Shown here one piece after another: positions 7,501 through 56,468 of a stretch of 64,000 nucleotides of DNA; the stretch's first letter is position 1; every line of letters begins with the position of its first letter. The DNA lies in assembly GCF_037975245.1 (NCBI RefSeq), contig NC_092565.1:10596499-10660498 (forward strand), written 5' to 3'. The DNA is from Apostichopus japonicus. Its lineage: Eukaryota > Echinodermata > Holothuroidea > Aspidochirotida > Stichopodidae. Made by a program: the position numbers and the translations under genes. The notes beneath the pieces were generated by a model. That model had not been told where the DNA came from. It searched no databases and saw nothing but the letters and a program-made list of their open reading frames with translations.

Positions 7501-10500
7501 TCATGATTTTTGACCTCTGCAAATATTCCAATATTATTTCTGTCCTTATATTGAGCTGACAACACACGGGGACAGCGACGTAGCCAGGAATTTGAAAGGG
7601 GGGGAGCACTTTTTGCGATAGATATGGATTTTCAAAGTTGTAGGCATGACTATCTGAGCGGAGCGCCACCTTCAGTTGGCGCGGAGCGTACAAGAAAAAT
7701 TTTTGGTTTTACAAACCCCCCAGATGGCCGGAAACGGCCATTCCTGAGTGTTCATTCTGGTTCCCTGGCCTCATGCTAACTTGAGACACCTCATTCAATA
7801 TTACTTTTAATCCCAAAAACAAACGAGTTAAAATAGTACGTAATTCAATACTACATAATGTATTAAAATTAGCAAGGTACGTGTACAGAGTAGTCTAACT
7901 TTTCAACTTCTGATACTTGTAGATACAAAGATAGGCCAGAAATGTCTTTGATACAACTATAGCCAGTAGTTGTCTTTGATACAACTGTAGCTAGTAAATG
8001 TTTAAGTTAGCCTAATAAGAGAAGGCGAGAGCTATCTGACGATTGCCATCTGATGCAAATTTCTCAACTGTTTTCTCAACTGAAATATTATCTGCGTAAA
8101 CGGGTTCTTAACTACATGTTAAAAAACTGACAAGATCGGATCCTAGTCTTTTTCGGCGGGTAGAGTGTTGAATGAAACGGCACGCGATAGAAATGACAGC
8201 CTATAGATGACAGAAGAATAGGTCACCTAATTTAGCCATATTCTTGCTACGTTCATTTCAATAGTTTTTCCTGTCTATACTCTTAAACTCGTCCAGCAAG
8301 CTTATCGATTTGAATTATGGGTGTTTTTAAAAAAAAGATAACTTGGCCAAAAAAATGTAGGCCCGGGCCTACAGTGCTACATACTGGCTACGCCCCTGAT
8401 CATATGATATCATTATCAGCAGATTTTGTTTCCTGTTTGAATTCTTTTACATGTTCTTTTACATAATATATCAGAAAGACAAACATATATCAGAAAGACA
8501 AACATAGTGCTCTCAGTGGCGGAGCTACGGGTATTGGTCAGTATGGGCGAGAATGATCTGTAGGGGCGCTTTCGACACAATCTAAGCGGAGCGCCACCAC
8601 TGGTTGGCGCGTAGCGTACAGACAATTTTTGAGTAAAGATACTCCCTAGATCGCCGGAAATGACCCTTTCCGGGCCTGGCTAATTTGCAGATAAACGAAG
8701 AATAAATAGGTGTCATCGCCAAATTACACCAACAAAATGTGACAAATGTCAATAAGTAGATGAGAGCGCAATAAAAAAGTCAATAATCTAGAATAAGTAA
8801 AAAGTGGTAAAGAGCTGAAAAGGGCGCCAGCAGTCCATTTGAGTCCGTCAGGGGGGGGGCATCCGCCCCCCTGACTGTATGGACGCTCCGCCACTGAGTG
8901 CTCTTTTACAATTTTTTCCAGTAGGATGATTCTTGTTTATTGTCCAATGTCTGGACTTTAATACATTTGACGAACTTAACTGATGGACAATATAAACTTT
9001 CATATTTTGTAATATAGCCAGATATGCAGTGGCCTAAAAACAAATATCGTTATCGCAGTGTATTAGCAGTGTAATACTTATTATAGGAAGTGCGTATCAC
9101 GTACGATTGCTAGCTTAGCTTCATAACATGCTGTTCGTGCAACAACTTACGACGACTCATAGAACGAACGTTGTCGACGTTGTTGTGCACACAGTTCGTG
9201 ACATTCCATAGAGTGCTGTTAGGTAGGCAATATGTATTTTATTACGCAGTGGCCAACTGTAGGCTTGTAATTGGCTATAAGCTAAATTTAGCTAATTGCA
9301 TCTACCAAACTAAGTAAGTATAGTTGAATGAGTAGGCGTGAATGTTACTACGATTACAATCGAGTTAACGGAGCTGACGAGTATTCCAGATCAAAAGAGC
9401 ACTGACAAAATACCATGCTAAAAAAACGACAGTTTAAAAAAAAAAATCGACACTGAAAGGGGGGGAGCAGTCGCTCCCCCTGCTCCCCACCTGGCTACGT
9501 CCCTGCACGGGGACAAGAATGTTTCTTAAATAAGATACACCTGTAGAGGAATGTTACGCTGCTATCACAAATCGCTTGACATAATCAGCATGCAGCCAAA
9601 CAGGTGCAGTCTGCACATTCAATACGTATATATAGCGTTCTCCTGCTATGATCTGCATTTCCGGACTACTCATTGCCTCAGTTTTGTCAGTCTGAGAGCA
9701 GAGTAAAACACTAGCAAAGGGTGACGTCATGTAAAGGGAATTCTGCCAACATCCCTGCTGGGTTTGTCTCCACTCAAGCCATGACAGAGTTGTGTCATTA
9801 AAAGCAATATACAAAAACTTCTCATAATTATATTTATTATATATGTTGCCATGAGAGTGTTCCAAATACATCCATCAATCCATCAAAACTCATTGCAATG
9901 GTGCACTGAGAGTGTCCAAGATATATTCAATAAATGAAATATCAGGATTGGGGTTATCGATTACATTTTTTGGAAGTAATAGTAATCGATTACTTCGATC
10001 AAAATGCAAAGGAATCTTAATAAATTATACTTTGGCAAAATAATCATACTTTACGATTACAAATGAAGTATCAATCAAAATTTGCTAAAATTAAAGAAGT
10101 GAAGACTTCAATGACACCATGCACAAGGGGTCTTCATTTTTCTTGGTAATGGGGGTGGGGGTGGGGGCGGGTGTTGAAAGCATACAGAATTGCTGCATAA
10201 TATTTTCAGTGTTAAGAAAGCTAGACATTTATTGTATCTATATTTCTGGATGAACAAGTACTACAGACTTACATACTCATTACGACAAACTTGAATCTTT
10301 TGAGAAGCATTCTCATTAATACTCATGCAGCTACAGTATGTGTAGAAAAAACGTTTCTTATCTTCATTTCTCTGTCTTTACTTCTGGCAATTAGTTTTGG
10401 GCACTCTGCCAGAAAACTTTGTAACCAATGACATTGGCAATGATAACAAAAAGAGGTATTACAGTAAATTACAACTATTGTTTATTTAGAATTCTTTCTT

Positions 10501-26350: not shown

Positions 26351-27173
26351 ATATTTTGCGATCATAGCAAGAGGGCAAATTTCATTCACATTGAGTAATA
26401 AAGACGCGCACAGTGGCGGCGGAACCGGGGGGCTTGGGGGGCTCAGCCCCCCCCCCCAATAAAAAAGTTGAGGGGGCAAATGCATGATAAGCCCCCCCAA
26501 TATTTACCAAGGCTCCGAAACGTGCATCTGCCCATTTTTCAATGCATACTTGTCGATCTGTCCGATGCACACGTAAACTATATAGGTGTAATAATTTTAG
26601 TAAAGGCTGGGGGACCCTCGGACCGTCCCCTGGCTATAGACCACATTGTCACCCCAACCGCGTCTTCACGCCCCGTGAAAAGTGGAAGCAGTGTGTGTGA
26701 GTACCGGTACACTACGATTACACGCAAGGTGTGGAACATGGCTCTTTGTTTAAACGCAATAATTATTAAACGAACAAACTCACAATATTAGCATTTCACC
26801 TGTACTGTATAGGGTACTAAATCGCGACAGTGCGTGGTTCATAGAAATTTGTTGGCAACTGCACATAGTTTTGGACTTACCCATTTGTTGACATTAAGAA
26901 ATGCTTTCTGTTTTTTCTTATGACATTTATTTAATTATTGCATTTAATTGCAAGTACCGTAGTAATTTACTACACTCAAAAACGTCTTTGCGAGTACCGT
27001 AGCTACTCTCTTAAAACACCATCGAATGTACAAATTACAATGTTTTTTACAGATTTTTACGTGCAATCTGAGAAATTGCAGGCTTGAGACCAGGGGCGTA
27101 GCGAGCGGGGGTGTGGGGGGTGTCACACCCCCCAATAATTTGGTCGCTGTCGGCAAATTTTGGGTCTGTCGGC

Positions 27174-28267
27174 CAGTGGCGGCGGAACCGGGGGGGCTTG
27201 GGGGGGCTCAGCCCCCCCAATGAAAAAGTTGAGGGGGCAAATGCATGATAAGCCCCCCTCAATATTTACCAAGGCTCCGAAACGTGCATCTGCCCATTTT
27301 TCAATGCATACTTGTCGATCTGTCCGATGCACACGTATACTATATAGGTGTAATAATTTTAGTAATTGCTGGGGGACCCTCGGCCCGTCCCCTGGCTATA
27401 GACCACATTGTCACCCCGACCGCGTCTTCACGCCCCGTGAAAAGTGGAAGCAGTGAGTGTGAGTACCAGTAAGCGTAACACAACTTCGTCTTAGGCCAAT
27501 GACTTGCCTCATTTCAGCCAGTTCTCCAACATCCCCTTACTTAGTGGCGGAGCGTCCATATATACAGTCAGGGGGCGGATGCCCCCCCCCCCCCCCGACA
27601 GACTCAAATGGACTGCTGGCGCCCTTTTCAGCTTTTCACTATACTTTTTACTTATTCGCTATTATTGACTATTTTATTGCGCTCTCATATACCTATTGAC
27701 ATTTGTCATATTCTGTTGGTGTAATTTTCCGACAAAATGGCGACGACACCTATTTATTCTCCGTTTATCTGCAAATTAGCAAGGCCCGGAAAGGGTGATT
27801 TCCTGCAATCTAGGGAGTATCTTTACTCAAAATTTTTCTGTACGCTCCGCGCCAACCTGTGGTGGCGCTCCGCTTAGATAGTGTCGAAAGCGCCCCTACA
27901 GACCATTCTTGCCCCCCCCCCCGACCAATACCCCTAGCTCCGCCACTGCCCTTACTACACTCAAAAACGTCTTTGCGAGTACACTACGAGTATAATAGCT
28001 ACTCTCTTAAAACACCATCGAATATACAAATTACAATGTTTTTACAGACTTTTTGCGTGCAATCTGAGAAATTGCAGACTTGAGACCCATATTTTAGGGC
28101 TAGGTATTCGCAGCATAAAACACACGGGAAGTGCCGTTTCCGGCCATCTGGGGGTTTGAAATAACCCAAAATTTTCTTGTACGCTCCGCGCCAACCGATG
28201 GTGGCGCTCCGCTTAGATAGTCTCCACACATTAGCCCCCCAATAATTTTTCCGTTCCGCCGCGCCTG
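27174..28267. mobile_element. hAT-like element A' (same family as A) inserted in B
   Basis: Ends are CAGTGGCGGCGGAACCGGG and CCGTTCCGCCGCGCCTG, as in A. Perfect 8-bp duplications CTGTCGGC lie at 27166-27173 and 28268-28275. The terminal 280 bases at the left are nearly identical to A, but the middle differs. The hairpin module lies at 28169-28222. It is interrupted by element C. Confidence 0.9.
27542..27948. mobile_element. hAT-like element C inserted in A'
   Basis: Ends are TAGTGGCGGAGCGTCC and CTAGCTCCGCCACTG. Perfect 8-bp duplications CCCTTACT lie at 27534-27541 and 27949-27956. It is the same family as 8514-8896 in reverse orientation, with the hairpin module at 27831-27884. Long C runs lie close to both ends. 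407 bp, non-coding. Confidence 0.9.
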
Positions 28268-28874
28268 CTGTCGGCAAAAGGAGAAAAGGTGAAGAGAGCG
28301 GAAGGGGAAGAAAGAAGGAAAGCTGAATAGAGAAAAGGAGAACGGGAGCTTCTTCCGTGCCAAATTTGACTTAAAATATGCACCAGATTGCATCTAAGGA
28401 CGTTTCAAAACTAAAAATTTTCCAAAGGGGAGGGGTAGACCCCCTCCCCTTAGATCCCTCCCCCATTTCAGTCACCACTTCCAGATCCGTCGGCAAATCA
28501 AATTTGACTTAAAATATACACCAGATTGCATCTAAGGACGTTTCAAAACTAAGAAATTGCCAAAGGGGAGGGGGACACCCCTCCCCTTAGACCCCTCCCC
28601 CATTTCAGTCACCACTTCCAGATCCGTCGGCAAATCAAATGCTCCACACCCCCCCCAACAAAAACCCCTTCGCTACCCCCTGCTTGAGACCCATATTTTA
28701 GGGCTAGGTATATTCGCAGCATAAAACACTCGGGAAGTGCCGTTTCCGGCCACCTGGGGGTTGAAAAACCCTTGTACGCTCCGCCCAACCAATGGTGGCG
28801 CTCCGCTTAGATAGTCTCCACACATTAGCCCCCCCCCCCCAATAATTTCCCGTTCCGCCGCGCCTGGACGCGCA

Positions 28875-29436
28875 TACGGTTAGGCTGAGAGAGTTCCTTA
28901 TTTCTTTATTTTAAACATTTCTGCGGTCGCTAAGTAACTTCACAACCATATTATAAGACGATCTTCAAATTTTATTTTGGTCAAAATAAATTAAACGAGC
29001 ATATTAAGTTCGACTTTTTACTTTCATTCGATCGGCAACTGACCTGATGTCTTGGTTTGATCAACTTTATAGATACAGGCCTATACTCATAATTTAGTAT
29101 ATGCAAATAAAAACTCAACACAAAAGCATACTGTTTTAAAGGAACACTGCATAATTGTAAACCGGGTGCGGAAATTCATTAACGACTCAGCAATTATTCG
29201 CCTAAGAAAAAAAAGAAAAGAAAAAAAAAACAATAACATAATTATAAAAGAAAGACTTTGGCCCGACTTTTCAAGTTTCAGTACGATTGACATAAAAAAG
29301 AACTGATTTTACAATATCTACACTTTAAATGGCCAATTGACTGGGAACTTATGAACAAACTTAACTTGAAAAGAGAAAAAGGAACCTTTTACTAGATAGG
29401 ATTCCAAGCAACTGATCGAGTGACCTCATGGGCGTA
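28875..29436. other. Intergenic spacer without recognised features
   Basis: AT-rich sequence with an A-rich tract near 29205-29235. No coding motif, terminus or tandem repeat stands out. Confidence 0.4.
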
Positions 29437-30475
29437 AACCCTGCCATAGGTGTACGAGGCGGGGGGGGGCAGGGGGCAGACTTCCCCCCCAAATTTCCAG
29501 AGGACAAGAAATTCGGGCAAAAGTCCTGAAAAATTCGGGCAGCCTAAGAGGAGAAAAAAATATATATATATAAATATGTAGTAGCTTGCCCGAATTTTTT
29601 TCATTTTCATATTTTTGCCTGAAAATTCCGTGGAGAGCGTTCTGTGTTATTTGTTTTGTGACATTAATATTAATATAGGCCTAATGATTTTCTTTATGTA
29701 GCATCATGATGCCCGAATTTTTCCGTGTAACACCACCGTAAGCGCAGCTCATCTGGGCTACCACGCTTTTTGCACTATCGCCGCTCACAATCGTGGTGAC
29801 AAGCATGCATGGAGATTAGCAGTCTCTGAAGTGAAAAAAACCGCGGTAAACATATTTTTATAACTAATCAACTGTATATCTGGACATCCCAGACATGAGT
29901 GTATATAAGAAACATTTTCTTTTTCATGGATGGTTGGGGGGGGGGGTGCCTTCAAGCCTAAAAGTACAGGTTTATCATATTCTTTGTTATTTTTTATACT
30001 TTTTGTGAGACAAATTGCAGTCTCACCCGACACCGCGACGTTTTCCCGCCTACGTGTCGTTGAACAATGTATGTTTTTCTTGGGGTAGCTGAGTACTGTG
30101 TTAAAATAATAAATACCGTAACTAAATAGGAGTTAACAAATATACTGTCCTAGTTTTCCCCGTCAAAGTGATGTTACCATTTTTTCTTCTTCTAATTTAC
30201 CAAATTTTTGGGGAAGTGTAAATTTCTAAACGTGAGATTATAAAATAAAGAATGTTTAGATGCGACTTGCAAGGCCTCAGAAGTGCCATTTCCGGCAATC
30301 TGAGAGGCATATTTTGCCAAAAAAATTCTTGTACGCTACGCGCCAACCGATGGTGGCGTTCCGCTTAGATAGTGTCACGGGAAATTTCGGGCACAAAAGT
30401 TTCTGCCCCCCCAAACCGAAATGGTCCCGTACGCCTATGAACCCTGCGCTCTACCAGTTGAGCTTTCCAGTAAGG
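29400..30475 (-). repeat. tRNA-like sequence or SINE head split by the 995-bp element
   Basis: On the minus strand, 30475-30440 reads AAGCTCAACTGGTAGAGCGC (a tRNA D-arm and A-box pattern) followed by AGGGTT. Across the insertion, 29444-29400 continues through GGGTTTACGCCC to GCTTGGAATCC, a degenerate B-box. Removing the insertion restores D-arm to B-box spacing expected of a tRNA. The acceptor and anticodon stems do not pair cleanly, so a tRNA-derived SINE or pseudogene is likelier than a working tRNA. Confidence 0.45.
29445..30439. mobile_element. hAT-like element with 8-bp duplication, inserted in a tRNA-like sequence
   Basis: Ends are CATAGGTGTACGAGGCGGGG and TCCCGTACGCCTATG, with perfect 8-bp duplications AACCCTGC at 29437-29444 and 30440-30447. 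The 995-bp interior contains TTCGGGCA motifs, long G runs and the hairpin module (30320-30375). No transposase frame. It is distinct from the CAG-ended families by its CATAGG terminus. Confidence 0.85.
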
Positions 30476-31040
30476 TCGGGTGGCGATCGGACTTATATAG
30501 GCCAACAGGTCATGAGCCACATGAGTCAAAAGCCACAGTAGACAATTCAGTGACAAATGTGAAAAATAGTACCGGGACGTTGTACTGTCATTTAAACAAA
30601 GTTATGCAGGCGAACTAGCACAATGATGACATAAGCAAACAATCCAAATGAACATTAAATGTCAAAACGTAGAAATACATTCCCAGTTGGGAAAATCACA
30701 GTAAACAATCAATCACATTTTAAGTTGAATAGAAAATTCAATAGTGTAATGGAGGTTTGGAAGGGATGGAGCCCAACCAAATACTATGGAAGCGCATAAG
30801 TGTCACAAACATGGAATAACAAATTTTGTATTTGCGACGTGTTCGGTTGTGCAGAGCATGAAATGTAATATTTCTGCTAGATTGGTAAGCAAATAAGGAT
30901 TAACCAGTTTCCGTTTACATCTCCTACCTCAAAGAAGACTTTATTGTTCATGATCGTTTTAGCGTATCATGCACGAAAAAGAGACAATCATCTTTTTCCG
31001 TAGCATTGTGTGAATGAACGTAAACCGTACATATACCATG

Positions 31041-32220
31041 CATGGAAGCCACTTGGTCCCCAGTGTACTGAAGCATACATGGAAGCCACTTGGTCCTCAG
31101 TGTACTGAAGCATACATGGAAGCCACTTGGTCCCCAGTGTACTGAAGCATACATGAAAGCCACTTGGTCCCCAGTGTACTGAAGCATACATGGAAGCCAC
31201 TTGTCTCCAGTGTACTGAAGCATACATGGAAGCCACTTGGTCCCCAGTGTACTAAAGCATACATAAAAGCCACTTGGTCCCCAGTGTACTGAAGCATACA
31301 TAGGGGCCACTTGGTCCCCAGTGTACTGAAGCATACATGGAAGCCACTTGGTCCCCAGTGTACTGAAGCATACATGGAAGCCACTTGGTCCCCAGTGTAC
31401 TGAAGCATACATGGAAGCCACTTGGTCCCAAGTGTACTGAAGCATACATAAAAGCCACTTGGTCCCAAGTGTACTGAAGCATACATAAAAGCCACTTGGT
31501 CCCCAGTGTACTGAAGCATACATGAAAGCCACTTGGTCCCCAGTGTACTGAAGCATACATGGAAGCCACTTGGTCTCCAGTGTACTGAAGCATACATAAA
31601 AGCCACTTGGTCCTCAGTGTACTGAAGCATACATAAAAGCCACTTGGTCCTCAGTGTACTGAAGCATACATAGAAGCCACTTGGTCCCCAGTGTACTGAA
31701 GCATACATGAAAGCCACTTGGTCCCTAGTGTACTGAAGCATACATGGGGGCCACTTGGTCCCCAGTGTACTGAAGCATACATGGAAGCCACTTGGTCCCC
31801 AGTGTACTGAAGCATACATGGAAGCCACTTGGTCCCAAGTGTACTGAAGCATACATAAAAGCCACTTGGTCCCCAGTGTACTGAAGCATACATAAAAGCC
31901 ACTTGGTCCCCAGTGTACTGAAGCATACATGGGGGCCACTTGGTCCCCAGTGTACTGAAGCATACATGGAAGCCACTTGGTCTCCAGTGTACTGAAGCAT
32001 ACATGGGGGCCACTTGGTCCCCAGTGTACTGAAGCATAAATAAAAGCCACTTGGTCCCCAGTGTACTGAAGCATACATAGAAGCCACTTGGTCCCCAGTG
32101 TACTGAAGCATACATGAAAGCCACTTGGTCCCCAGTGTACTGAAGCATATATGGAAGCCACTTGGTCCCCAGTGTACTGAAGCATACATGGGGGCCACTT
32201 GGTCCCCAGTGTACTGAAGC
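31041..32220. repeat. 37-bp minisatellite, about 32 copies
   Basis: Head-to-tail units of GAAGCCACTTGGTCCCC then AGTGTACTGAAGCATACAT, with variants confined mostly to the GGAAG/AAAAG/GGGGG/TAGAAG positions and the CCCC/CTCC/CCTC positions. One unit near 31200 is shortened. 37 leaves remainder 1 when divided by 3 and the minus strand has no stop in the unit, so all three minus frames stay open for hundreds of codons (up to 395 aa at 31097-32284). I treat these as artefacts. Confidence 0.95.
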
Positions 32221-32221
32221 A

Positions 32222-32360
32222 AATACCTTGTGTAATTTGTGTAGCATGACTGGTGATATTTGTCTTCAATAGCCAGGATACCATGCAGTGTCATCTTTTC
32301 TTTAGCTGCTTGCTGAAGTTTTGCAGCTCCTATGGTAGAACACATCACTACATGTGTCAA
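32222..32360 (-). pseudogene. Fragment of a multicopy element-type protein (HxxxCYxxYT motif)
   Basis: The minus strand before the minisatellite encodes KLQQAAKEKMTLHG, then a short spacer, then KYHQSCYTNYTRYL. The pairing of an AAKEK helix with YHxxCYxxYTR is a pattern I recall from many uncharacterised, high-copy invertebrate proteins, probably zinc-binding and transposon-linked. It reads straight into the 37-bp array, so the original protein is truncated. Family assignment is from memory. Confidence 0.45.
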
Positions 32361-32427
32361 TCTACAGTGTCACTTTCTTATATCAGAAAATTGTAGGCTA
32401 TGTACTAAATTTACTGTGGGCTAACGT

Positions 32428-33033
32428 CAAGGGCGGCGGAAGCACTTTTAATCTGGGGGGGCACCGACATCAAAGGGCACTTTGCAGAAATTCGATTGGA
32501 CTGATGTAGCCTGATATTTAGTACCCTTTATAACTCTTACTGTATTATCTTATTTGCGTATACACATCACTCCATCAACGCCCCCCCCCCCCCCCCTCAA
32601 GGAAAATATGCATACTAGCACTGCAATATCCAATGTGCAAATTGGAAAACAAGGAACAAGTTTTCTATTGAGACAAATGAGGCGAAATCATGCTAGTTGC
32701 TAATGTAGGAAACTTCCGAATTAGAGTTTATTTCTTGTTTGACCCACATAAATTCATTAAAAGTCAGGGCGTAGCCATGATTTGCAAAGTTGTATGCACG
32801 ACTAACTGAGCGGAGCGCCACCATCGGTTGGCGCGGAGCGTACAAGAAAAATTTTGGTTTTACAAACCCCTCAGATGGCCGGAAACGGCCCTTCCCGAGT
32901 GTTCATTCTGGTTCCCTGGCCTCTTGCTAACTTGAGACAACTCAATTTTTATGTAGAAAAAGGGCACATTTTTAACCCTGAGGAAAAGTGGGGGGGCACG
33001 TGCCCCCTGTGCCCCCCGGTTCCGCCGCCCTTG
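32428..33033. mobile_element. hAT-like element, family CAAGGGCGGCGGAA, copy 1
   Basis: Inverted termini CAAGGGCGGCGGAA and TTCCGCCGCCCTTG are exact. Perfect 8-bp duplications GCTAACGT lie at 32420-32427 and 33034-33041. The interior has a C run near 32581, a GTAGCC motif, the hairpin module (32801-32856) and G-rich sequence by the right end. 606 bp, non-coding; closely related to 55819-56468. Confidence 0.92.
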
Positions 33034-33293
33034 GCTAACGTGTGACTTAAAAGTCCTTTGCTTTTTTTTTTCTTTTTTTTTGAGTTAGTAGTCTCATCAA
33101 GTTTCATCAGATTTAGTAATGCAACTATGAATGAACGTGGAAAAAAATCAATTAAGATTTTACTTTATTAATAAAAGAAAAAAGGAAAAAACATAGAAAA
33201 TGTTTGCTATGTGCTACGCTTAGTTAGTTTGCAGAGCCTATACGGCTCCCTAAAGGTTCGCCCCTCCCTTTGCAAATTCCTGGCTACGCGCCT

Positions 33294-33814
33294 GATGATT
33301 CGTACTAGATAGTTGTTGCACGAACAGCATGTTATGAAGCTAAGCTAGCATTCGTACGTGATACGCACTTTCTATAAATAATTATTACACTACTAACACA
33401 CTGTGATAACGACATTTGTTTTTAGGACACTGCACATCTGGCTGTCTTACAAAATATGCAAGTTTATATTGTCCATCAGTAAAGTTTGTCAAATGTATTT
33501 AAGTCCAGACAATGGACAATAAACAAGAATCATCCTACTGGAAAAATTGTAAAAGAGCACCATTTTTGTGTTTCTGATATATTATGTAAAAGAACATGTA
33601 AAAATTCAAACAGGAAACAAAATCTGCTGATAATATGATATCATATGATAATGATGAAACTGGCAAAATATTGCACCAGATCGAATCTAAGGACCTTCAA
33701 TTGTTGAAAAATCTCCCAAAGGGGAGGGGACACCCCATCCCCTTAGACCCCTCCACCATATCAATCGCAACAAAAGTGCTCCCCCCCCCCTTCAAATTCC
33801 TGGCTACGTCGCTG
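33294..33814. mobile_element. Truncated relative of the 7573-9505 element, reverse orientation
   Basis: 33310-33640 matches the reverse complement of about 8410-9150 (for example GTTGTTGCACGAACAGCATG, AGTCCAGACAATGGACAATA and GTAAAAGAACATGTAAAA). The terminus TTCAAATTCCTGGCTACGTCGCTG ends at 33814. The target of element 8514-8896 is uninterrupted here. The other end is lost, probably against the terminus GGCTACGCGCCTG ending at 33293. Confidence 0.75.
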
Positions 33815-34718: not shown

Positions 34719-35711
34719 GGCCGTCTGAAGAGATCACCGGGCCCTGGGCCCGGCAATGGAGCGGGGCCCTTGAATCAAGTGAGTTCGAAAAAAGTTGCGT
34801 GAACAATTGACATCCTTGACAATCGCTCAAGCATAGACATGCCTGCATTTACCACCCCTCCCTTTGTCGCGCATAAAGCATAAAACTTTAGCTGAATAAC
34901 ATACGTGATATATCTAAAAGCTGAAATACATTATAGAAGAGTAATCTTCCAGTTGCCCTCCATCCCTTCCCTAACAATACTAGACTCACCATTTGTAACA
35001 CCCTTGTGTTGAGTCTTTCAACTGGGGAAACTAACGGAACTTGCGGCATTTCTTGATCGTAAACTGTTGTATGATTGGCTGAAAGTCAATATTTTTGAGG
35101 ATGTCGCTTTCTATGCACATGAGAGAGAGCCTATTAAGTCTCCGTTGCCCCATTCTGTTCCGGAGATTATTCTTGATTAGTTTTAACCTTGAAAATGTAC
35201 GTTTCCCAGTACAATTTGTAACAAAATAACTGGTGCTCGGACCGCGGACACGAGTTGTCTGGTGTTGTAAGTCTTCGGGCATTGTATATTCCAGGGTTGC
35301 CAACTCCGATTCGAATATTTAATGTCAAACTCTCAAGTGTTTCACCAACTCTCGTCAAAAGTTGTCAAGTATCGAATTCAATCAGGCATAATGGCCTATT
35401 CAATAAATTTTCCTCCCAGATTAAGACATGGGGTTACTACGATTGGAGCCCCGGACATCGCGGGGCCCTGAACCAGGGCCCAGTGGGCCCATGCGTTAAG
35501 AAGGCCCTGTATTGGATATTGTATTACAGTGTACCACGATATAGTATGATAATTATAAATATTGCAGTACAATAGTATTGTATACTAGCATGCTTATGAA
35601 CCTGCTGTTCGAATATATGTCGACATAGGGGGTTACTACGATTGGGGCCCCTGACATCGCGGGGCCCTGAGCCAGGGCCCAGTGGGCTCATGCGTTAAGA
35701 CGGCCCTGTAT
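34719..35711. mobile_element. Internally deleted hAT element with CAGGGCCGTCT termini
   Basis: CAGGGCCGTCTGAAGAG at 34719 pairs with AAGACGGCCCTG ending at 35711 and with an almost identical end at about 35505 produced by a local duplication. G/C-rich GGGCCC blocks flank both. The interior encodes the C-terminus of a hAT transposase on the minus strand. No matching 8-bp duplication was found, so the exact outer end is unsure. Confidence 0.6.
35031..35240 (-). pseudogene. hAT transposase C-terminal (dimerisation) remnant
   Basis: The minus strand reads GKRTFSRLKLIKNNLRNRMG, then QRRLNRLSLMCIESDILKNI, then DFQPIIQQFTIKKCRKFR and a stop at 35031. This follows the hAT C-terminal pattern (E/K)R(S/T)FSxLKxIKxxLRxxMxxxRLxxLxLxxIE seen in ZMYM1-like hAT proteins. 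Upstream residues lose similarity near 35250, so the catalytic region is absent. It belongs to the deleted element at 34719-35711. It is an insertion relic and not expected to be active. Confidence 0.75.
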
Positions 35712-35755
35712 TGGATATTGTATTACAGTGTACCACGATATAGTATGATAATTAT
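35432..35755. repeat. Direct duplication of about 125 bp
   Basis: 35432-35558 and 35629-35755 match closely: GGGGTTACTACGATTGG, GACATCGCGGGGCCCTGA, CAGGGCCCAGTGGGC, CATGCGTTAAGA and GTACCACGATATAGTATGAT occur in both. The copy includes the hAT right terminus and about 45 bases beyond it. The second copy runs into the 12-bp array. Confidence 0.85.
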
Positions 35756-35758
35756 TGG

Positions 35759-35915
35759 TCCTGGGATGAATCCTGGGATGAATCCTGGGATGAATCCTGG
35801 GATGAATCCTGGGATGAATCCTGGGATGAATCCTGGGATGAATCCTGGGATGAATCCTGGGATGAATCCTGGGATGAATCCTGGGATGAATCCTGGGATG
35901 AATCCTGGGATGAAT
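35759..35915. repeat. 12-bp tandem array, 13 copies
   Basis: Perfect repeats of TCCTGGGATGAA. On the minus strand it reads as repeating RIHP or SSQD and on the plus strand as NPGM, which are artefacts of a unit divisible by three. It is followed at once by the 15-bp array. Confidence 0.95.
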
Positions 35916-35917
35916 CC

Positions 35918-36286
35918 GGGATAGCTCGACCTGGGATAGCTCGACCTGGGATAGCTCGACCTGGGATAGCTCGACCTGGGATAGCTCGACCTGGGATAGC
36001 TCGACCTGGGATAGCTCGACCTGGGATAGCTCGACCTGGGATAGCTCGACCTGGGATAGCTCGACCTGGGATAGCTCGACCTGGGATAGCTCGACCTGGG
36101 ATAGCTCGACCTGGGATAGCTCGACCTGGGATAGCTCGACCTGGGATAGCTCGACCTGGGATAGCTCGACCTGGGATAGCTCGACCTGGGATAGCTCGAC
36201 CTGGGATAGCTCGACCTGGGATAGCTCGACCTGGGATAGCTCGACCTGGGATAGCTCGACCTGGGATAGCTCGACCTGGGATAGCT
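35918..36286. repeat. 15-bp tandem array, about 24.5 copies
   Basis: Almost perfect repeats of CCTGGGATAGCTCGA. The first eight bases CCTGGGAT are the same as in the neighbouring 12-bp unit. Minus-strand frames read SQVEL or PGRAI repeats for about 200 codons, with no initiation context or flanking coding sequence. The array ends about 250 bases before the PYROXD2 start codon. Confidence 0.95.
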
Positions 36287-36538
36287 TCAGGTTGGTGCGC
36301 AAAGGACTTTGTAAACATTGGCGGATGGCAACACTGGGCCTTTTTGCCCCTCGAAAGAACGAAAAGCAAGCAAGTTGAACTTGAAGAGGCCTATACCTCC
36401 GGAGTAGGCTAGACTAGGTCGTCCATTGATGAGCTCGGCTAGTGCTAAAAACAGTGGGACGAAGTTAGTCTCAGCAAATTGCTCCCGCGGGATCCAGTAA
36501 CTAATTCGATATAGCCTAGTTAGTATTTGCAGTAGGAA
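36287..36538 (+). promoter_or_regulatory. 5' flank and probable 5' UTR of PYROXD2
   Basis: A short stretch between the 15-bp array and the ATG must hold the proximal promoter or 5' UTR unless a further non-coding exon exists upstream. It contains a palindromic CCCGCGGGATCC at about 36484. No TATA box is evident. The minisatellites lie within 250 bases of the start codon. Confidence 0.4.
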
Positions 36539-45500: not shown

Positions 45501-48500
45501 TTAGGTCTTTATTTCTCAACTTGGAAGGGGGATGGTGTGTGGGTGAGGTTTGCTCTTCTCATTAATTGTATTTTTTTTTAAATTATCTATTCTCTAAGTT
45601 CTTTGGTTTCAAGTCATCTCGTGTGAAAAACAAATTGACTGCATTGTCTGTCATTATTTCGCCCTCCCCCCCACATATTTTTTCTGCAAGCAAACAAACT
45701 GTTTCCAACAACCTCCCTCTGTCCAAAAATCTGAAATGGCCATATTACCTCTCTCAGTTTTATTTGTCTGTTTCTTGTTACAGACTGTCAGCTCTCTCCT
45801 CTCTGATTCTGACAAGAAAGTCTGTGGAGTCGTTCTTGAGGATGGCACCGAAATCAGAAGCAAAGCTGTCCTGTCCAATGCTACCCCTAAGGTGACCTTC
45901 GTGGACCTCTTACCCACTGGTCTAATCCCTGCAGAGCTGGTTCAGGATTTGAAGGGATTTGACTCTACATCCCCTGTAACAAAGATTAATGGTAAGCTTG
46001 AAGAAAGGTTTCAAGTTTGAAACAAAAGTTGAAAATATAGTCAGAGCAGTCCTGTAGTATTGACAGGTATAAAAGAAATTGCTGACTGGCATCTGGCTTA
46101 TGGATTCCTTACAATGGTGATGGCATATATGTATTCGTGGGTACGTGTTGTGATAATCACCATGCAGAGCCTACACGAACTTCATACTCGTTTATGCAGA
46201 TTTCACTAATTATCAAATTCTTGGTTGCTTGAGGTCAAAGGCCATTTGTGATCGTTAGTGGCCAAATTAGGGAAACTTTGTGAAATTTTTATTAATGATG
46301 ATCCTTTATTTGTATGTTGATACCTCTTGGTGGAGATCAGCAAATTGTCAAATTTTGAAAACCTGGCTAAATATACTAAATAGATGTATGGTTGGTGAAT
46401 CACATACTTGGTATGTGAATGTCACTGAAAGAATCAAACCCAGCGTGGGTATTGATCAACTAATATCAAAGTATGAACTCTCTATCAGTTATTATATCAT
46501 GCATCACACTTACGGGACAACTTTAAGGTGTTGCTAAACAAATTCAAATTGCACAACCCAACCAGTATTTTAGAGAAGATCTAAAAAGTCGACTTCCACT
46601 AGAATTGAAATTTATCTATGCTAACTTCACAGGTCAATAATTGCATGACCAATGAGCAAGTAAATATATATTGGCCTGGTTGTACATTTTATGGTCAAAT
46701 AATTGCTCCTTTCCTTCTTAAAAGTTGCTGTGAATAAGCTGCCGAACTTTACAGCTCTGCCGAACGTCAGTGAAAATGTGCCCGGCCCTCACCACTCCTG
46801 TACGATTCATCTGAACTGTGAGTCCATGAACATGATTAACGAGGCTTACTCCAGTGCAATGGCCGGGGAACTCCCGAAGAGGTGAGTGAACACAAATAAA
46901 AAACTTTATAATAGGATGAGAAAATTAACCATCCTCTGCCACATATGCAAAAGACTTGTTTTGAATGGGGGGGATCTCCCTCACACAGCGAAGGAAAAAT
47001 CTTGTTCTGTTGTGGTATCGTCATGGTATCCACTAGTGACTGAATACGACATTTAATTAAATACTTAAGTATTGAATCTTGGATTAACACTACATAATAC
47101 CATTTCGGTACTTAGTTTCCTCAGTGGCAGCTCTTTAATGGACATAATGACAGCTGCCCTTTGATATGCAATTTAACCTTTGATATCTCACAAGTTAATT
47201 CCCCCCCCCGCAACCTCCTCCCCACCCCCAACACTCCCTTCTAATAAAACACAAAAGAAGACAGTGAATGGATCACCTTTGGTATCTCTCCTTAGCAAGG
47301 TGAAGAGATTGATTTATATTTAAATAAATTTTCGGAAAGGAAAAATATTTTACAGTGAAGGATATCAAGATACAATCCACTTCTGAAGATCCAAAAAGAC
47401 CTCATTAAACCTGCTTCTCAGAAGGTGACACTTCTAATTTGTGGGGATGCGGTCATTAAGACCTATTTCCAACAATCTGTTTGCTGTTTGTGATTATTGA
47501 TAAATGTAGGTCCATTTATCATGTTTGTAGTGCCTGCACTTATAATACAGTGGCTATGCACAAAATAATGGCACAATTATAGTTGGTACACTGCTATAAC
47601 TAGTTAAACTATTATATCCAAGGAGTGTGTCATATTGCTATTGTTATAGATGCATGATGTAATATATACTTTCTCATTTATGTGGTTTTTTAATGCTAAT
47701 ATTCATAACCAGCACACCGAGAAACAATCGAATTGAGTCAAAGAATTGATGAATACTTCTTCTCTTCATTTTATCACCGTTTTTTCAGACCGATGATCGA
47801 ACTTTGTATTCCTTCAACCGTTGACCCCACCCTGGCTCCAGAAGGTCACCATGTGCTGTCATTCTTCACCCAGTATACACCCTACCATCTCAGTAATGGT
47901 AGAGAATGGGATGAGGAGACCAAGAAAGCTTATGCTGACATAGGTACGAGGGAGTGGTTTTATTCTTTGCCTGGTCCTCTACCGTTTGTCATATCGAGTG
48001 CTCATAATTGCTTAACAGGATATTCTGTTGGCAGATGATGGGAAGCTCACCGCACTGATAACCTCGTCTCCATAACTTTACCTTAACTTGAGATATAGTT
48101 GAATGATTGTAACCTTATTTGACTAGCTAAACCATCAACCATCCCAGAGTATCACATCAGGTGGTCCTGTGACGTCATCATGTCACATGTTCTTCTTAAG
48201 CTCTACTCTCCTTTTACAATCTTCTTGTTGATTTTTTCTCCTTCTCAAAATGCGATACATTTGGAACGTTTACTTGGCTGTCGATTTGGTTTAAAGGTTG
48301 TTTTTCTGGGAGCGGTCATTTTGTAAACCTGTGATGTCACATTGCCATTAGGGTCTGAAAGCTGTTACTTTCTCATTGTTTACCTTTTCATATTTTCAAG
48401 GTAGAATGTTAACAGTGTTAACGTTTACTATTTTTAGATTCTGCGTTTGCATATAAAAACTTGAAACACTTGTAGCTTGATGATGTCATATTTAGACTTG

Positions 48501-51261
48501 ATCAAGTCTTCAGCCTTGTCTGTGAAGATGTGATAAAACCTGTGATATCTCCCAAATGGAATAATGTTTGTCTTTACAGAGCCTGTTTGGGCAAGTTGTT
48601 CATGACAGCTATTTCTATCACATAAGACTAATTATGATATTTGGGTCTGTGTCTCCTCCGTTAACTTATAATACCATACATGGTGTTAATGTAAAGTTAA
48701 TCTGGTTTATTTTCCTTCCTGTATTCTAGTATTTGATGCGGTCGAGCAGTATGCTCCAGGATTTAAGGACAGTATTGTGGGTGCTGATATTCTACCGCCA
48801 CCAGAACTAGAGAGAATATTTGGTTTAACAGGAGGAGTAAGTTCTTTATCGTTTTTGTAATCGTTCAATTCATTAATAGAAATATTTGGCATAAGATATG
48901 TTACTTAATTTCATTTGGACATGCTCATTGTAAAGTCTTGCTGAGTGGTAGCCTTAAAGGAGTTTTTTGTCCCTGGAGGGAGGGAGGGAGTGGGAGGGAG
49001 GGAGGGGAAGGGAGGGAGGGGGATGGAGGGAGAGGGAGGGAGGGTGGAGGCAAGGGGCAGGAAGCAGGTTGTTGGTAATTCGTCAAAGTGCTCTCCCGCT
49101 CGGATTTTAAGTCCAGCAGTCTTTCTTTGATTTCAAAGTCAGTGAGTTTCATGAAGACAATACTACCACGAGTGGGCAGGGTGCACATTTCCGACAGTCC
49201 ACAAGTTACCAATCCTAACTTATTAATGCCGCCTTCAGCAGAGCACTTCACATTATGCAACCAAACATGAAATAGATATGCTACAGGGTAGTTTGCATAT
49301 GTTAGGGGGTTGCCTTTACTTGTGGTAGGAAATTAAAAAAAATTAATAAGACATCAATATCAGCTGCTCGTTGTTTGAATGTTTTGTTTGTCTTTTTGCT
49401 CATCTAATCTTTGACCTCATTATGAACTCATTACCTAAATTTGTGTATGTTTACGTGTATATGTTTATGTGTATGTTTATTAAGGCATTTCTCTCTATGC
49501 TAAGTGTGGAATGTTTACTAATTAGTGAAACATCATCTCCATTGAGGCATTTCTCTGTATGCTAAGTGTGTAATGTTTACTATTAGTGAAACATCATCTC
49601 CATTGAGGCATTTCTCTGTATGCTAAGTGTGGAATGTTTACTATTAGTGAAACATCATTTCCATTGAGGCATTTCTCTCTATGCTAAGTGTGTAATGTTT
49701 ACTATTAGTGAAACATCATCTCCATTGAGGCATTTCTCTGTATGCTAAGTGTGGAATGTTTACTATTAGTGAAACATCATCTCCATTGAGGCATTTCTCT
49801 GTATGCTAAGTGTGTAATGTTTACTATTAGTGAAACATCATCTCCATTGAGGCATTTCTCTCTGTGCTAAGTGTGTAATGTTTACTATTAGTGAAACATC
49901 ATCTCCATTGAGGCATTTCTCTGTATGCTAAGTGTGTAATGTTTACTATTAGTGAAACATCATCTCCACTGAGGCATTTCTCTGTATGCTAAGTGTGTGA
50001 TGTTTACTATTAGTGAAACATCATCTCCATTGAGGCATTTCTCTGTATGCTAAGTGTGGAATGTTTACTTTTAGTGAAACTAAGTGTGTTAGAATGTTGA
50101 ATGTAATCCCAATTGTTATCACAGAATATCTTCCACGGGGCATTGTCACTGGATCAGCTGTACCTAGCCAGACCATACACGTGGTGTTCCAGTTACCGCA
50201 CCCCAGTCAAAGGGCTTTACCTCTGTGGCAGTGGAGCCCATCCAGGTAAGGGTTGTTATTGGTTTTATGATAACATGATCTTAAAATGAGGTATTGAGTA
50301 GAAACTCGTGGAGGGCGGGTGGACAATGGAAAGGCAATGGACTTGCAATCAAAGGATTGCAAGTTCCATTCCCCGGTCAGGAAAAGGCAGTTAACCTTCA
50401 TTGCCTCTCTTCACCAAGGTGTGTAAATGGGGACTTGCAAAATCACTTTTATCTTGTTGTTTGTGCCGGTTTGTGGCTGGAAGTCGGCCAGTGAACACAT
50501 AAATATGGGATAAAGATGATAAATGTATTCCTATTTCCATAATAAAATTGAGAGCAATTTAAGAGTGGAATATGGGACACCAAAGTGACATAATGTTCCC
50601 CCCTTTGGTTGTGAGGTGACTCTTGATGCCTCTGGGGAGTATGTCCTCCATCTTGATATCATGGCAGTGCAAGGTGTTTTAAGTATGGCTGTTACTTAAG
50701 ATAAAAAGCAATGTACTGAAAATATAAATAAACGAAATAATACATGATCAAAAGAGGGTTATTATTCACTGTTGTCAGGATATTTCAAACTATTCAAGTA
50801 TTGCATACACACTCTTAAAGGTAGTCAGTATAGGCCCCAAATTATAGCACGCTATGATTGTTTTCAAAAAGGACTTTCCTTGAGGTCTTTACTCACCAAA
50901 TCGTTCTCAGACAATTTTAAGGAACGCACAAGATGACTTAATGTCCCACTGATGAAAATTTCCTACAAAGGTTGTAATAAACCAGTCTAAGAATTTTGAC
51001 CAAAGGTGACCATATTTGAGTATCTAGCATATTTTGGGCCAATACAGCATAACTTTAGGGACATATAATAGACATTAGACAACAAAGATGTCATATGTTA
51101 TTGATCAAATTATACTTGCAATTACCTGGATGGAAAGAATATTGTTGTTTGCTAGTGTTTTGATAGCTTCTCTTTCCCTCTCGTTGACAGGTGGTGGTGT
51201 GATGGGAGCACCCGGGTATAATTCTGCCCAGATCGTCAAGACGGATTTTGCAGCTATGTGA
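36539..51261 (+). CDS. PYROXD2: Pyridine nucleotide-disulphide oxidoreductase domain-containing protein 2, complete, 15 coding exons
   Basis: Coding exons: 36539-36551, 38229-38383, 39840-39933, 40266-40339, 40629-40784, 41675-41828, 42827-42888, 43635-43732, 44460-44601, 45784-45991, 46725-46881, 47789-47943, 48730-48836, 50125-50245, 51191-51261. All introns are GT-AG and phases join to 588 aa (human about 581). The N-terminus ([17 protein letters not shown]) is basic with no acidic residue before 36, fitting a mitochondrial presequence. [13 protein letters not shown] (42-53) is the FAD-binding GxGxxG motif, followed by [31 protein letters not shown] and PVTKIN are central family motifs. 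The C-terminus has [20 protein letters not shown]. The family resembles phytoene desaturases; the mammalian protein is mitochondrial and its substrate is unsettled. The start is supported by A at -3 and G at +4. Confidence 0.95.
36664..36939. mobile_element. MITE with 16-bp inverted termini in PYROXD2 intron 1
   Basis: AGTATTGCGAAGTTCG at the left is mirrored by CGAACTTCGCAATACT at the right. A second internal GCGAAGTTCGGG lies at 36687 and a related CCGAACTTCGAAG near 37124. 276 bp, non-coding. No clear target duplication. Confidence 0.6.
41965..42270. repeat. Tandemly duplicated segment in PYROXD2 intron 6
   Basis: ATGAAATTTTATTGGACTCT, followed by CACATACTCTTTTCTTA and ATTATGATTTTGAAAG, occurs at about 41997-42057 and again at about 42180-42238. 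A small hairpin, TGAATGTCCATGTTGGACATTCA, sits at the end of the first copy. It has no coding role. Confidence 0.75.
48325..48660. repeat. Dispersed repeat, copy 2 (single 37-bp unit), PYROXD2 intron 12
   Basis: Colinear with 17740-18530: TTTTCATATTTTC, GTAGAATGTTAACAGTG, CTTGATGATGTCAT, TTTAGACTTGATCAAGTCTTC, then one diverged unit ending CCTGTGATATC, then TTGGGTCTGTG. It is the unexpanded counterpart of the 12-copy array in ZFYVE28. Confidence 0.7.
48974..49060. repeat. GGGA-rich purine tract in PYROXD2 intron 13
   Basis: About 85 bases made almost only of GGGA, GGGAG and GGAGG words on the plus strand. It is a purine tract able in principle to form triplex or quadruplex DNA. The open frames across it are artefacts. 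Confidence 0.85.
49482..50080. repeat. 61-bp minisatellite, about 10 copies, beside PYROXD2 exon 14
   Basis: Units begin GAGGCATTTCTCTGTATGCT, continue through AAGTGTGTAATGTTTACTAT, and end AGTGAAACATCATCTCCATT; copies differ at GTA/TA, GGAA/GTAA and CTCT/CTGT positions. The array ends about 45 bases before the exon 14 acceptor at 50124, so it occupies the usual branch-point neighbourhood. Confidence 0.93.
50309..50525 (+). mobile_element. tRNA-derived SINE in PYROXD2 intron 14
   Basis: The head GGGTGGACAATGGAAAGGC resembles an A-box region. GGACTTGCAATC and GATTGCAAG pair as an anticodon-like stem, and GTTCCATTCCCCGGTC is a near B-box. The body includes GTGTGTAAATGGGGACTTGC and GCCGGTTTGTGGCTGGAAG; the latter recurs near 54745. 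The 3' end has short GATAAA/GATAAAT words as expected of a SINE tail. Confidence 0.65.
50819..51057. mobile_element. TTAA-associated MITE, copy 1 (PYROXD2 intron 14)
   Basis: It follows TTAA (50815-50818) with AGGTAGTCAGTATAGGCCCC and ends in TTTTGGGCCAATACAGCAT. Near-identical to 53649-53893 in inverted orientation. The right TTAA is eroded. It ends about 130 bases before the last PYROXD2 exon. Confidence 0.75.
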
Positions 51262-52061
51262 ATGCAGAGATTTCTATGTATGTTTTCAATTTGCTTTAAA
51301 GGCTCAACACTCATTTTATTTTTGATAATGTGACGTACGTAGCAAGTCACAAACAAGTTTTTGGGGAAAAGGCTAAATGTTTACATGGTTTATAGTAATC
51401 ATACACAGCTTCTGTTTCTATTGTCTGCAAGTTTGGCAGCATTAAGATGTTAGAGCATTTGGTTGTTTTCAAATACACAACAGCATTCACTTTTTGATTT
51501 AGGAATAAGGCATAGGGTGTGTGAGTTCTCTATCAGTACTTTGAGCATTATTATTAACTAGTAATTAATAAGTATTCATTTCTCGCAGTGGGTTAACACA
51601 TTCACTTTTCAACGGTGGCTTATTTGTACGGATCAGGCATTGTGTGGCGTGTGTAATATTAAACGCAGCTGGTCTTGCATTCAGTAATTACACATATTCC
51701 CTTTATACTTAAATAACATGTTTCATTTCCTGCAGTATAACATTCCTTTGCACAGAACTATAATGACAATTTGCTTTCATTACTGTGAGATCGGATTTGT
51801 GAAGACTGTTTACTTTTCGAGACAAGCATGAAACCTTTGTAATACTAAGTAGATGTACCTAGCCATACACCATGGTTTGGAGTGAAGTAGCCTTTCATTA
51901 TTACATCCAAAGTAGACATTTTAACACAAAATATAAAAACTTGATATTTCACTTGTGTAAATAGCATTGCATTATTAAAATGAGTTAATCTGCCCAAGGA
52001 GGTATATTAACTTGGCTTGTGCTTTCTTTCATGGTTGATGAGAGAATGGTTGGGTAGAGTG
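51262..52061. other. 3' flank of PYROXD2
   Basis: The 3' UTR begins after the TGA at 51259-51261. I did not find a canonical AATAAA at a convincing distance; variant signals are possible. No other gene or bounded repeat is visible. Confidence 0.4.
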
Positions 52062-52857
52062 CAGTGGCAACAGTAGGCCGGTGCTCCAGGGAGGCCTGGT
52101 GTCATGGACCAAAAAATAAGACAAGTTTTAATATTAGAAGATTGTTTTCATCTTTTTATATCTTAAATAACGCCAGGCCCACTTACTTTTACACGTCTTA
52201 AATACTGTTATGTACAGTTTTTTTGAAGTTCTCTCCCGATACCCACCAAATTGGGAATTCAGACAAAACCCTTTCCACAACAGAGGCCTGGTCACACTAC
52301 AGAGATATTTTATCGGAATACGGTCTGATTTTTCCGATTTTAGGCCGAAGAGTGAGGTTTGTGGTGGTGAATGTAATGAATGTAATGGAATATTCGAATA
52401 CCTACTCCAAACCTGAGGGGTTCTGGAACGGACTACATTCTGAAGTGACGTCACATCGAAAATACGAAAAACGATAAAAATCGGAAGAGAAATCGGGTAG
52501 CTATCCGATAAAAGAAAACGGAGTCAATATCAAAAGTTAGGAGAGAGCTATTCCACATCGGAATGGCTCAACAGATAGCAAATCAGGTCCTTTATCACTG
52601 TGGCTAGAAGACCCGAACGAAAAACAGGCTGTTTTGATTCCTCCTGGAAAATCGGATAGTATTCCGATAAAAAATCGGTATAGTGTGACCGGGCCTTAAG
52701 AGTGCTATATTTGGTAGTGTAAAGGTGCCAAATTTACATAAAAAAACAGTCTCAATCAAGCCCAAACCATAATTGGGATTGGGAAAATTTGGACTCTTCT
52801 TTGGGGACCCATTTCAATTGCTGCACCTGGGCCAGGTTGCCCCTTACTACACCACTG
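52062..52857. mobile_element. hAT-like element containing a nested MITE
   Basis: The left end CAGTGGCAACAGTAGG and right end CCCCTTACTACACCACTG have CAGTGG-type complementary tips. The outer parts match the repeat at 1-251. No clear 8-bp duplication was found (GTAGAGTG against GGTGTATG). Superfamily assignment rests on the termini only. Confidence 0.45.
52285..52697. mobile_element. MITE with GGCCTGGTCACACTA termini, nested
   Basis: GGCCTGGTCACACTACA at the left pairs with TATAGTGTGACCGGGCC at the right with two mismatches, and the next segments (TATCGGAATACGGTC and GGATAGTATTCCGATA) also pair. The interior is rich in ATCGGAA and CCGATA motifs. The paralogue at 1-251 lacks this block, showing it is an insertion. 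Confidence 0.8.
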
Positions 52858-53172
52858 GGTGTATGGGAGGATTGGGAGAACCGTTTCTGCATGTTATCAT
52901 GAGCCAGTATTACTCCATTATGAGAGTAAGGTGTAAGTTGGGTAAGCGCGGTTACTGCCCAGAACTTAGTTAAGCAAGGTAAGAGGTTTCTTCAAGTTTA
53001 AAGATGTGCTAATTTGTGCTTGCAAAGAGGTTAATTAACATAATTATGTATTGTATCCAAATCTTCATTCCTAGTCGTTGTTCTTCCATGAATATTTATG
53101 CAAAGCTCAAAGAGCATTTTACTTTTGATATAATTTCGATTGAATAATCCTTCATAATCATGTCAATTTTAA

Positions 53173-53529
53173 GGCATTGAAAACTCGCCCCAAACCGTGT
53201 GCCATGCTCTGAAAAAGTTAATTTTCCATTTCTTGCAACTGAAGTTTTCTTCTTGTCGCTACAAAATGCAGACAGTAATGAAACGTGATACCTTGTTATT
53301 TTTTATCTAGACCTGAGATGTCCACCGCTGCTATGTACACTGTATTGTGGGTATTGACTGTAGCTGTATGTATTGACTGTACACTAGTGTCTAATTACTG
53401 ACGGTAGCAAACTGTGTGTGTATTTTCTGGGGTCGATGTTGGTGTCTAACACTTCTGTTACACCTCATTCGAAACTAGGTCAGATTACCGGCATGAGACG
53501 TTTCTTTGTGAGACGAGTCTTCACACCCT
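53173..53529. mobile_element. TTAA-flanked MITE, GACTCGCCCC family, copy 1
   Basis: Flanked by TTAA at 53169-53172 and 53530-53533. The left end GGCATTGAAAACTCGCCCC and the right end CGAGTCTTCACACCCT are imperfect inverted repeats. 357 bp, non-coding, with a near-identical copy at 60439-60797 and a fragment at 26287. TTAA targets fit piggyBac-like or Kolobok-like mobilisation. Confidence 0.8.
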
Positions 53530-53648
53530 TTAATGTATTCTTTACTTGTATTTGTTTTTCTTCTTGTGTAATTGAACACTCCTCAATGTGTGGAAGTAAT
53601 TTGGAGATCCGCAGGCTAAAATTAGGGGCCAATAATGATGACATTTAA

Positions 53649-53893
53649 AGATATGCTGTATTGGCCCCAAATATGCTAGATATTCAAATATGGTCACTTT
53701 TGGTAAAAATTCTTAGATTGTTTTTATTACAACCTTCGAGTAAATTTTCCTCACTGGGACATTCAGTCATCTTGTGTGTTCCTTAAAAAATGTCTGAGAA
53801 CAATTTGGAGGGTAAAGACCTCTAGGAAAGTACTTTTTGAAAACTTCTAGCAATTAAAGCGTGTATAATTTGGGGCCTATACTGACTACCTTT
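53649..53893. mobile_element. TTAA-flanked MITE, GGCCCCAAAT family, copy 2
   Basis: TTAA at 53645-53648 and 53894-53897. Ends AGATATGCTGTATTGGCCCC and GGGGCCTATACTGACTACC share the core GTAT(T/A)GGCCCCAAAT as inverted repeats. 245 bp; inverted relative to 50819-51057. Confidence 0.8.
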
Positions 53894-54169
53894 TTAATTG
53901 TGTTATGCTTTTTTAATGTGATGAAATCCTGTTCAATACAGGGTTATAACTGATGACTGGACAGATAAAGTTATATTTATACAGCTTATGAAATTGTTTA
54001 AATTTCAATCCAGGATGGTTTTTAGCAATTCTGAAATCTTTTTTTAGGCTGGGTTGTTTTCAAATATGACCCAACAGATACCATCACAATATATTTAAGA
54101 AAATGGTACTACTTGATCACAAGAGAAAATTCAACACAAGAACAAGCAGTTCCAATCAATCATGGTTTG

Positions 54170-55810: not shown

Positions 55811-55818
55811 GGCATGGC

Positions 55819-56468
55819 CAAGGGCGGCGGAAGCACTTTTAATCTGGGGGGGCACCGACATCAAAGGGCACTTTGCAGAAATTCGATTGGACTGATGCAG
55901 CCTTATATTTAGTACCCTTTATAACTCTTATTGTATTATCTTTTTTTGCGTATACACATCACTCCATCAACGCCCCCCCCCCCCTCCCTCAAGGAAAATA
56001 TGCTTACTAGCACTGCAATATCCAATGTGCAAATTGGAAAACAAGGAACAAGTTTTCTTTTGAGACAAAATGAGGTGAAATCATGCTAGTTGCTAATGTA
56101 GGAATCTTCCGAATTTGAGTTTATTCCTTGTTAATATCTTAACAAATTTTTTCCATTCGAAATAGCTTTGAGTTTGACCCACAGAAATTCATTAAAAGTC
56201 AGGGGCGTAGCCAGGATTTGCAAAGTTATATGCACGACTATCTGAGCGGAGCGCCACCATCGGTTGGCGCGGAGCGTACAAGAAAATTTTTGGTTTTACA
56301 AACCCTTCAGATGGCCAGAAACGGCCCTTCCCGAGTGTTCATTCTGGTTCCCTGGCCTCTTGCTAACTTGAGACACCTCAATTTGTATGTAGAAAAAGGG
56401 CACAATTTTAACCTGAGGAAAAGTGGGGGGGCACGTGCCCCCTGTGCCCCCCGGTTCCGCCGCCCTTG
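55819..56468. mobile_element. hAT-like element, family CAAGGGCGGCGGAA, copy 2
   Basis: Exact termini CAAGGGCGGCGGAA and TTCCGCCGCCCTTG, with perfect 8-bp duplications GGCATGGC at 55811-55818 and 56469-56476. It is colinear with 32428-33033 throughout, including the C run and the hairpin module (56237-56290), but 44 bases longer. Non-coding. Confidence 0.93.

Follow-up and report, generated by a model that had tools for sequence, protein, structure and literature searches.

Eight copies of a non-coding block, block A, lie in the window, that is, the whole 64,000-nucleotide stretch of Apostichopus japonicus DNA that was analysed, and each is situated within a mobile element. Eight places with a common hairpin module had been listed in the initial annotation, and the block was found at 8/8 of them. 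Seven copies have a 20-base core within 0-2 mismatches, where a search tolerating 3 mismatches gave 0 matches in 100 shuffles; the eighth core (28767-28817) has one base missing from the left stem arm, plus another gap nearby. The differing termini reported for the host elements are real as well: exact 8-bp duplications (TSDs) surround six window elements and delimit the F5, F8, F4, and F1 hosts, and the TSDs of two F9 (CAAGGGCGG) elements were identified by eye. The blocks and their hosts are as follows.

7573-9505, minus strand: F5 host element of 1933 bp; an F8 element is nested in it, and the left end of a nested F3 lies near 8398; exact TSD TCCCCGTG
7649-7743, minus strand: block A in the F5 element, core match
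8514-8896, minus strand: F8 element, 383 bp; exact TSD AGAGCACT
8577-8671, minus strand: block A in the F8 element, core match
26411-28866, plus strand: F4 element, 2456 bp including nested insertions; exact TSD GACGCGCA
27174-28267, plus strand: F4 element, 1094 bp, containing the F8 element of 27542; exact TSD CTGTCGGC
27542-27948, plus strand: F8 element, 407 bp; exact TSD CCCTTACT
27786-27882, plus strand: block A in the F8 element, core match
28127-28221, plus strand: block A in the 1094-bp F4 element, core match
28733-28815, plus strand: block A with deletions, in the 2456-bp F4 element, core with one-base deletion
29445-30439, plus strand: F1 element, 995 bp; exact TSD AACCCTGC
30280-30373, plus strand: block A in the F1 element, core match
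32428-33033, minus strand: F9 element (CAAGGGCGGCGG); TSD ACGTTAGC, by eye
32801-32895, minus strand: block A within the F9 element, with a leftover F3-type end beside it, core match
55819-56468, minus strand: F9 element; TSD GCCATGCC, by eye
56237-56331, minus strand: block A within the F9 element, core match

In F9 the block is internal and is followed by the leftover end of another family (CCTGGCTACGCCCCTG). A module of 55 bases had been proposed, and the common block turned out to be longer, about 95-125 bases. Similarity between families declines gradually to the left of block A, and to the right it stops, between most families, at AGATAGT; beyond this edge, F3 and F5 have about 24 further bases in common, and F2 and F13 about 8. 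The palindrome placed about 35 bases from the module varies and is broken in some families. Subterminal palindromes are frequent in hAT elements of other marine invertebrates and of mammals.

Other repeats and frames are present in the window. A tandem repeat of CTTCAGTACACTGGGGACCAAGTGG-type units with several open frames occupies 31000-32290, and a tandem minisatellite with several open frames on both strands occupies 35700-36410. A long inverted repeat at 50807-53903, whose arms are 85-90% complementary with some 2.6-3.0 kb between them, resembles a further terminal-repeat element. The open frames at 45598-46020 and 62331-62699 appear to resemble exons of pyridine nucleotide oxidoreductase and acyl-CoA dehydrogenase.

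Host families across the genome

Genome-wide, the block is common: the exact core occurs at 5,527 places (2,734 + 2,793) in the 671,581,487-base genome, and a longer pattern with free loop positions and up to 3 mismatches at 19,824 (9,999 + 9,825), the reversed control giving 0 in both searches. The first family sample (n=48) comprised the eight window copies and 40 exact-core copies from contig C1. In 34/48 copies a recognised family end stands 51-97 nt past the end of the core, 13/48 copies are internal to F9-type elements, next to a leftover F3 end that is either whole or decayed, and 1/48 is truncated. The F9 contexts were set apart by eye, and the automatic F3 count (9) includes 7 F9-type relics. 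The second sample, 40 copies picked for other loops, added further termini, and 87 sequences were sorted into 15 groups. Two of the 15, F12 and F17, have no clear terminus; F17 is one copy with no clear end, and the apparent end of F12 is a relic, because 9/9 copies have common sequence beyond it.

The hosts are hAT transposons; judged from sequence, their 3' termini are of about a dozen kinds. Duplications were checked for F1, F4, F5, F8, F9, and F10, and 8-bp TSDs were found at six window elements, at two more by eye, and at five transposase-domain copies. Terminal inverted repeats of the form CA...TG are present, the exception being the window F8 copy with TSD CCCTTACT, whose left end begins with TA, not CA, and a C-run stands ahead of the 3' end in most families. 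At the left ends of nine hAT elements (F1, F8, and F9 in the window; L052x, L065, L056, L055, L058, and L059), a hairpin, mostly with a G-run, is located just inside the terminal repeat; its inner stem varies by family and is fully different in F10.

Position at an element's end is not needed for the spread of block carriers, since the block is internal in F9 (the 13/48 copies above) and the end of F12 is a relic.

Transposase-coding carriers of block A

A search for an autonomous element with the module had been suggested, and block A does occur near the 3' end of transposase-coding elements in three families. A profile search of the genome with PF05699, the hAT dimerisation domain, gave at least 150 matches, from which 20 transposase loci were hand-picked for intact or repeated copies. 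A strong block A match was found at seven of these 20, one of the seven being partial; at 13 there was no clear block A in the DNA covered (about 2.2 kb downstream), and these probably include single-copy host genes. At three of the seven, L052 (F4), L049 (F5), and L056 (F10), one element has the block, the transposase domain (PF05699 above cut-off), both ends, and an exact duplication. With their second copies, five TSD-flanked transposase-domain copies from three families (two F4, two F5, and one F10) carry the block near the 3' end, on the transposase strand. Four other loci (L051, L055, L045, and L060) were rejected as block-bearing transposase elements, the block lying in a neighbouring, nested, or truncated element of the fetched DNA.

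The F4 element, a hAT of 5.5 kb whose open frame spans 796 aa, is present as two copies:

L052x 4430-9949, 5,519 bp
L062 1363-6884, 5,521 bp

These are 99.96% identical and have different TSDs, which suggests that F4 has been mobile recently. The L052 transposase matches Hermes chains weakly (E 0.012-0.019). The F5 copies, L049 and L065, are 96-97% identical and both have two ends, with split frames. In L056, F10 is 2,342 bp long with an ORF of only 308 aa, the C-terminal part of a transposase; L064 is 99.7% identical to F10 over the final 1.96 kb of that element and has a longer frame of 514 aa, and a left end was looked for there and not found.

The transposases of these families are 25% identical over 459 aa (F4/F5), 29% over 301 aa (F4/F10), and 23% over 264 aa (F5/F10), whereas the blocks are 91.4% identical over 105 nt, 90.3% over 93 nt, and 86.0% over 93 nt, respectively. 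When the F4, F5, and F10 loci were compared (blastn, 1e-10, over 60 nt), the matches listed were only copies of the block. The hosts are therefore not one family with diverged, worn ends, a relationship that the initial annotation had named as making the module a matter of simple common descent. The 91% block match of F4 and F5 is itself, at least partly, a product of capture and not of long selection, as the history of F5 indicates.

Block B and the two forms of F5

In other families, the place of block A is occupied by block B, which is mostly different from it. Three stretches of the window are of this kind:

28380-28475, plus strand: block B within F4, the first of a pair spaced 138 bp apart, edges approximate
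28518-28612, plus strand: block B, second copy, edges approximate
33673-33814, plus strand: F5-type 3' end with block B in place of A; within 5 kb, no left end was found whose duplication matches

The hairpin of block B, of the GGGGAGGGG...CCCCTCCCC type, precedes TTAGA, and the exact hairpin pattern has 1,138 + 1,157 genome matches, with 0 in the reversed control. Block B forms the end of three transposase loci, L048 and the pair L046 and L047, which are copies of a single family, and B-type ends without one hairpin arm occur at L054, L059, L147, L148, and L153; at L046, L047, L048, and L054, no element end other than the 3' one was found. Block B also occurs in head-to-tail units of about 138 bp (28427 and 28565 in the window), seven of which stand in a row at G000 C1:2188354-2189208. 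Locally, A and B match best at the right arm (11/14 bases), a level reached by 1.2% of shuffles, which may be taken as a hint of a common origin.

F5 exists in two forms whose left and right ends are identical in kind. F5-A contains an F3 element minus its last 14 bases, fused to the F5 end, and F5-B contains block B. Across the genome, F5 junctions with up to 1 mismatch were found at 382 places with A and 295 with B, with reversed controls of 0. Among 14 fetched F5 copies (6 A and 8 B, with 2.2 kb each searched for a left end), an exact TSD with the F5 left end was present in 2/6 A copies and 3/8 B copies; two of these three B copies have one TSD in common and may be a single insertion that was copied. 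One further F5-B copy has a duplication with one mismatch, and the remaining copies have no matching duplication within 2.2 kb. The internal F3 start was found in 5/6 F5-A copies and in 0/8 F5-B copies. The script flag for A was positive in 6/6 A copies and the strict B flag in 3/8 B copies, the other five F5-B ends, often decayed, being called by eye. In the coding F5 copies, the F3 start motif is present in L049x, and its letters differ in L065, though the stretch aligns at 97%. Since F3 is also present outside F5, at L011, where both ends but no matching duplication were found, the A form appears likelier to be derived than the B form. Repeated exchange between elements had been one of the proposals of the initial annotation; one case, F3 into F5, is demonstrated by the sequence, and part of the block sharing is exchange.

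This swap bears on two accounts of the block. According to the first, a single old hAT lineage diverged in its coding parts while selection kept the end block, with no exchange. The general layout common to the families, with a left-end hairpin in the nine elements folded and a C-run before the 3' end in most, would fit such a lineage. However, the A/B swap in F5 points to exchange, and the L048 transposase, of a block B element, is nearer to that of F4 (36% over 726 aa) than is the transposase of F10, which has block A (29% over 301 aa). Simple common descent is thus already contradicted in part, and we regard it as very unlikely.

According to the second, the block has no function and spreads as a passenger by nesting and recombination, so that its similarity reflects recent copying. 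The capture of F3 by F5 is an instance of such transport, nesting is frequent in the window, F9 and F12 are carriers in which the block is not at a live end, and, in 40 copies selected by flanks outside the core, the core and the neighbouring parts decay equally (3.4% and 3.6%). Against it, the loss of B in F5 coincides with the gain of A, pairs such as F4/F10 have only the block in common among the matches listed (blastn, 1e-10), and similarity has one right edge between most families, F3/F5 and F2/F13 extending further. A functionless block is rather unlikely on this balance.

Folding and proposed recognition of the block

A functional RNA hairpin had also been proposed, and the block could then belong to the 3' untranslated part of a transposase transcript, with three stems (P1, P2, and P3) serving export, stability, or processing. 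A nested fold of these stems can be drawn on 14 family representatives with 91% of cells paired, versus 38-44% when slid. The second stem, P2, speaks for pairing, since its strands pair better with their own partner than with that of another family (partner shuffle, p 0.002-0.007), but energy shuffles of P2 do not reach significance for one strand or the other (Fisher p 0.23 and 0.11), and covariation over the structure as a whole is not clearly in excess of the shuffle control in the 14 representatives. No RNA structure is claimed. Single-sequence folds of the eight window copies (z -2.4 to +0.2) were set aside as a sign of structured RNA, one copy being clearly below its shuffles. P1 (ATCT../..AGAT) was likewise set aside as structural support: it is 94% paired, never changed on both sides, and broken in F13.

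Compensatory changes are rare in the main stem, P3. Seven of its eight pairs are invariant among the 14 representatives, which were themselves found via the core. For one pair, a changed base was accompanied by a changed partner in 2/100 listed places (of 142), and for another in 10/100 (of 288). The pair was restored in nine of those ten, five being A-T, within reach of ordinary CpG decay, and four belonging to one small subfamily (4 of 100 listed copies) with a T-A version, which would suit a selected stem. The flank-selected copies had 7 one-sided and 0 two-sided stem changes. Between families, the core differs by 5-8% and the neighbouring stretch by 30-32%, a contrast that is partly built in by core-keyed searches, and core conservation was therefore discarded as proof of selection.

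In addition, no Rfam family was matched, either in the whole window at gathering scores or, with the limit relaxed to E 1, in 27200-33300. Between the stop codon and the block, three of seven loci, two of them from one family, have AATAAA, and another two have ATTAAA, an arrangement that counts against a place within the transcript. Overall, the evidence for a selected fold is weak, and a structured RNA is improbable.

The reading we prefer, with a probability of roughly 55%, is that block A would be a 3' subterminal DNA end-recognition block of a hAT network, exchangeable between families. It is suggested by the 3'-end position in transposase elements, the right edge common to most families, and the replacement of A by B. 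The block may act at the DNA level as a recognition or assembly site near the transposon end, bound by a transposase or a host protein; on this view, proteins would bind at the palindrome and at the repeated CGCTNCGC words, which would not be parts of a folded RNA. Its spread would combine descent with capture, in which an element inserts near the end of another and the old block is lost. The transposase binding site of the initial annotation is compatible with this reading and is preferred among its proposals; what is observed is that the block stands close to the 3' end in transposase-coding elements of three families, and the binding is what we infer from it.

The usual view is that the ends of a transposon match its own transposase. 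It is conceivable, and we put it forward only tentatively, that hAT end cassettes (A, B, and perhaps more) are interchangeable and work with transposases about 25% identical, so that a family may swap its cassette and stay mobile; the cassette would be recognised through its shape or by a host factor common to the families, and not by each transposase's own sequence preference. A block about 90% identical across barely similar transposases, together with F5 carrying either block, amounts to a natural experiment on end function. If block A is a family-independent recognition site, this would help to explain the spread of thousands of short non-autonomous copies.

No such block appeared in titles or abstract openings among the literature matches listed, a scope that mostly left out subscription journals and so does not show absence in print. 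In Hermes, a solved hAT system, BED domains bind a quasi-palindrome beside the left terminal repeat, and mutating further internal binding sites had little effect (PMC10368747). The likeness to block A, whose putative role would be comparable, lies in a hAT element with a palindromic site near one end, which in Hermes helps to assemble the transposase complex, and in required ends that extend past the terminal repeat (PMC10368747). However, the Hermes site is described there as short and adjoining the left repeat, whereas block A is about 120 bases long, lies well inside the 3' end, and is common to families with very different transposases, with binding at block A being putative. Highly conserved SINE domains, such as V, which is also present in the DNA transposon MER6 (PMC6887750), are similar in being non-coding blocks of otherwise different mobile elements, one of which once moved into a DNA transposon. 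In contrast to the RNA-copied SINE hosts, those block A hosts for which both ends are known are hAT elements with 8-bp duplications, the comparison being one of descriptions. Block A also differs from maize Ac/Ds, whose members depend on one autonomous element (PMC3260210), in that it spans several transposase lineages.
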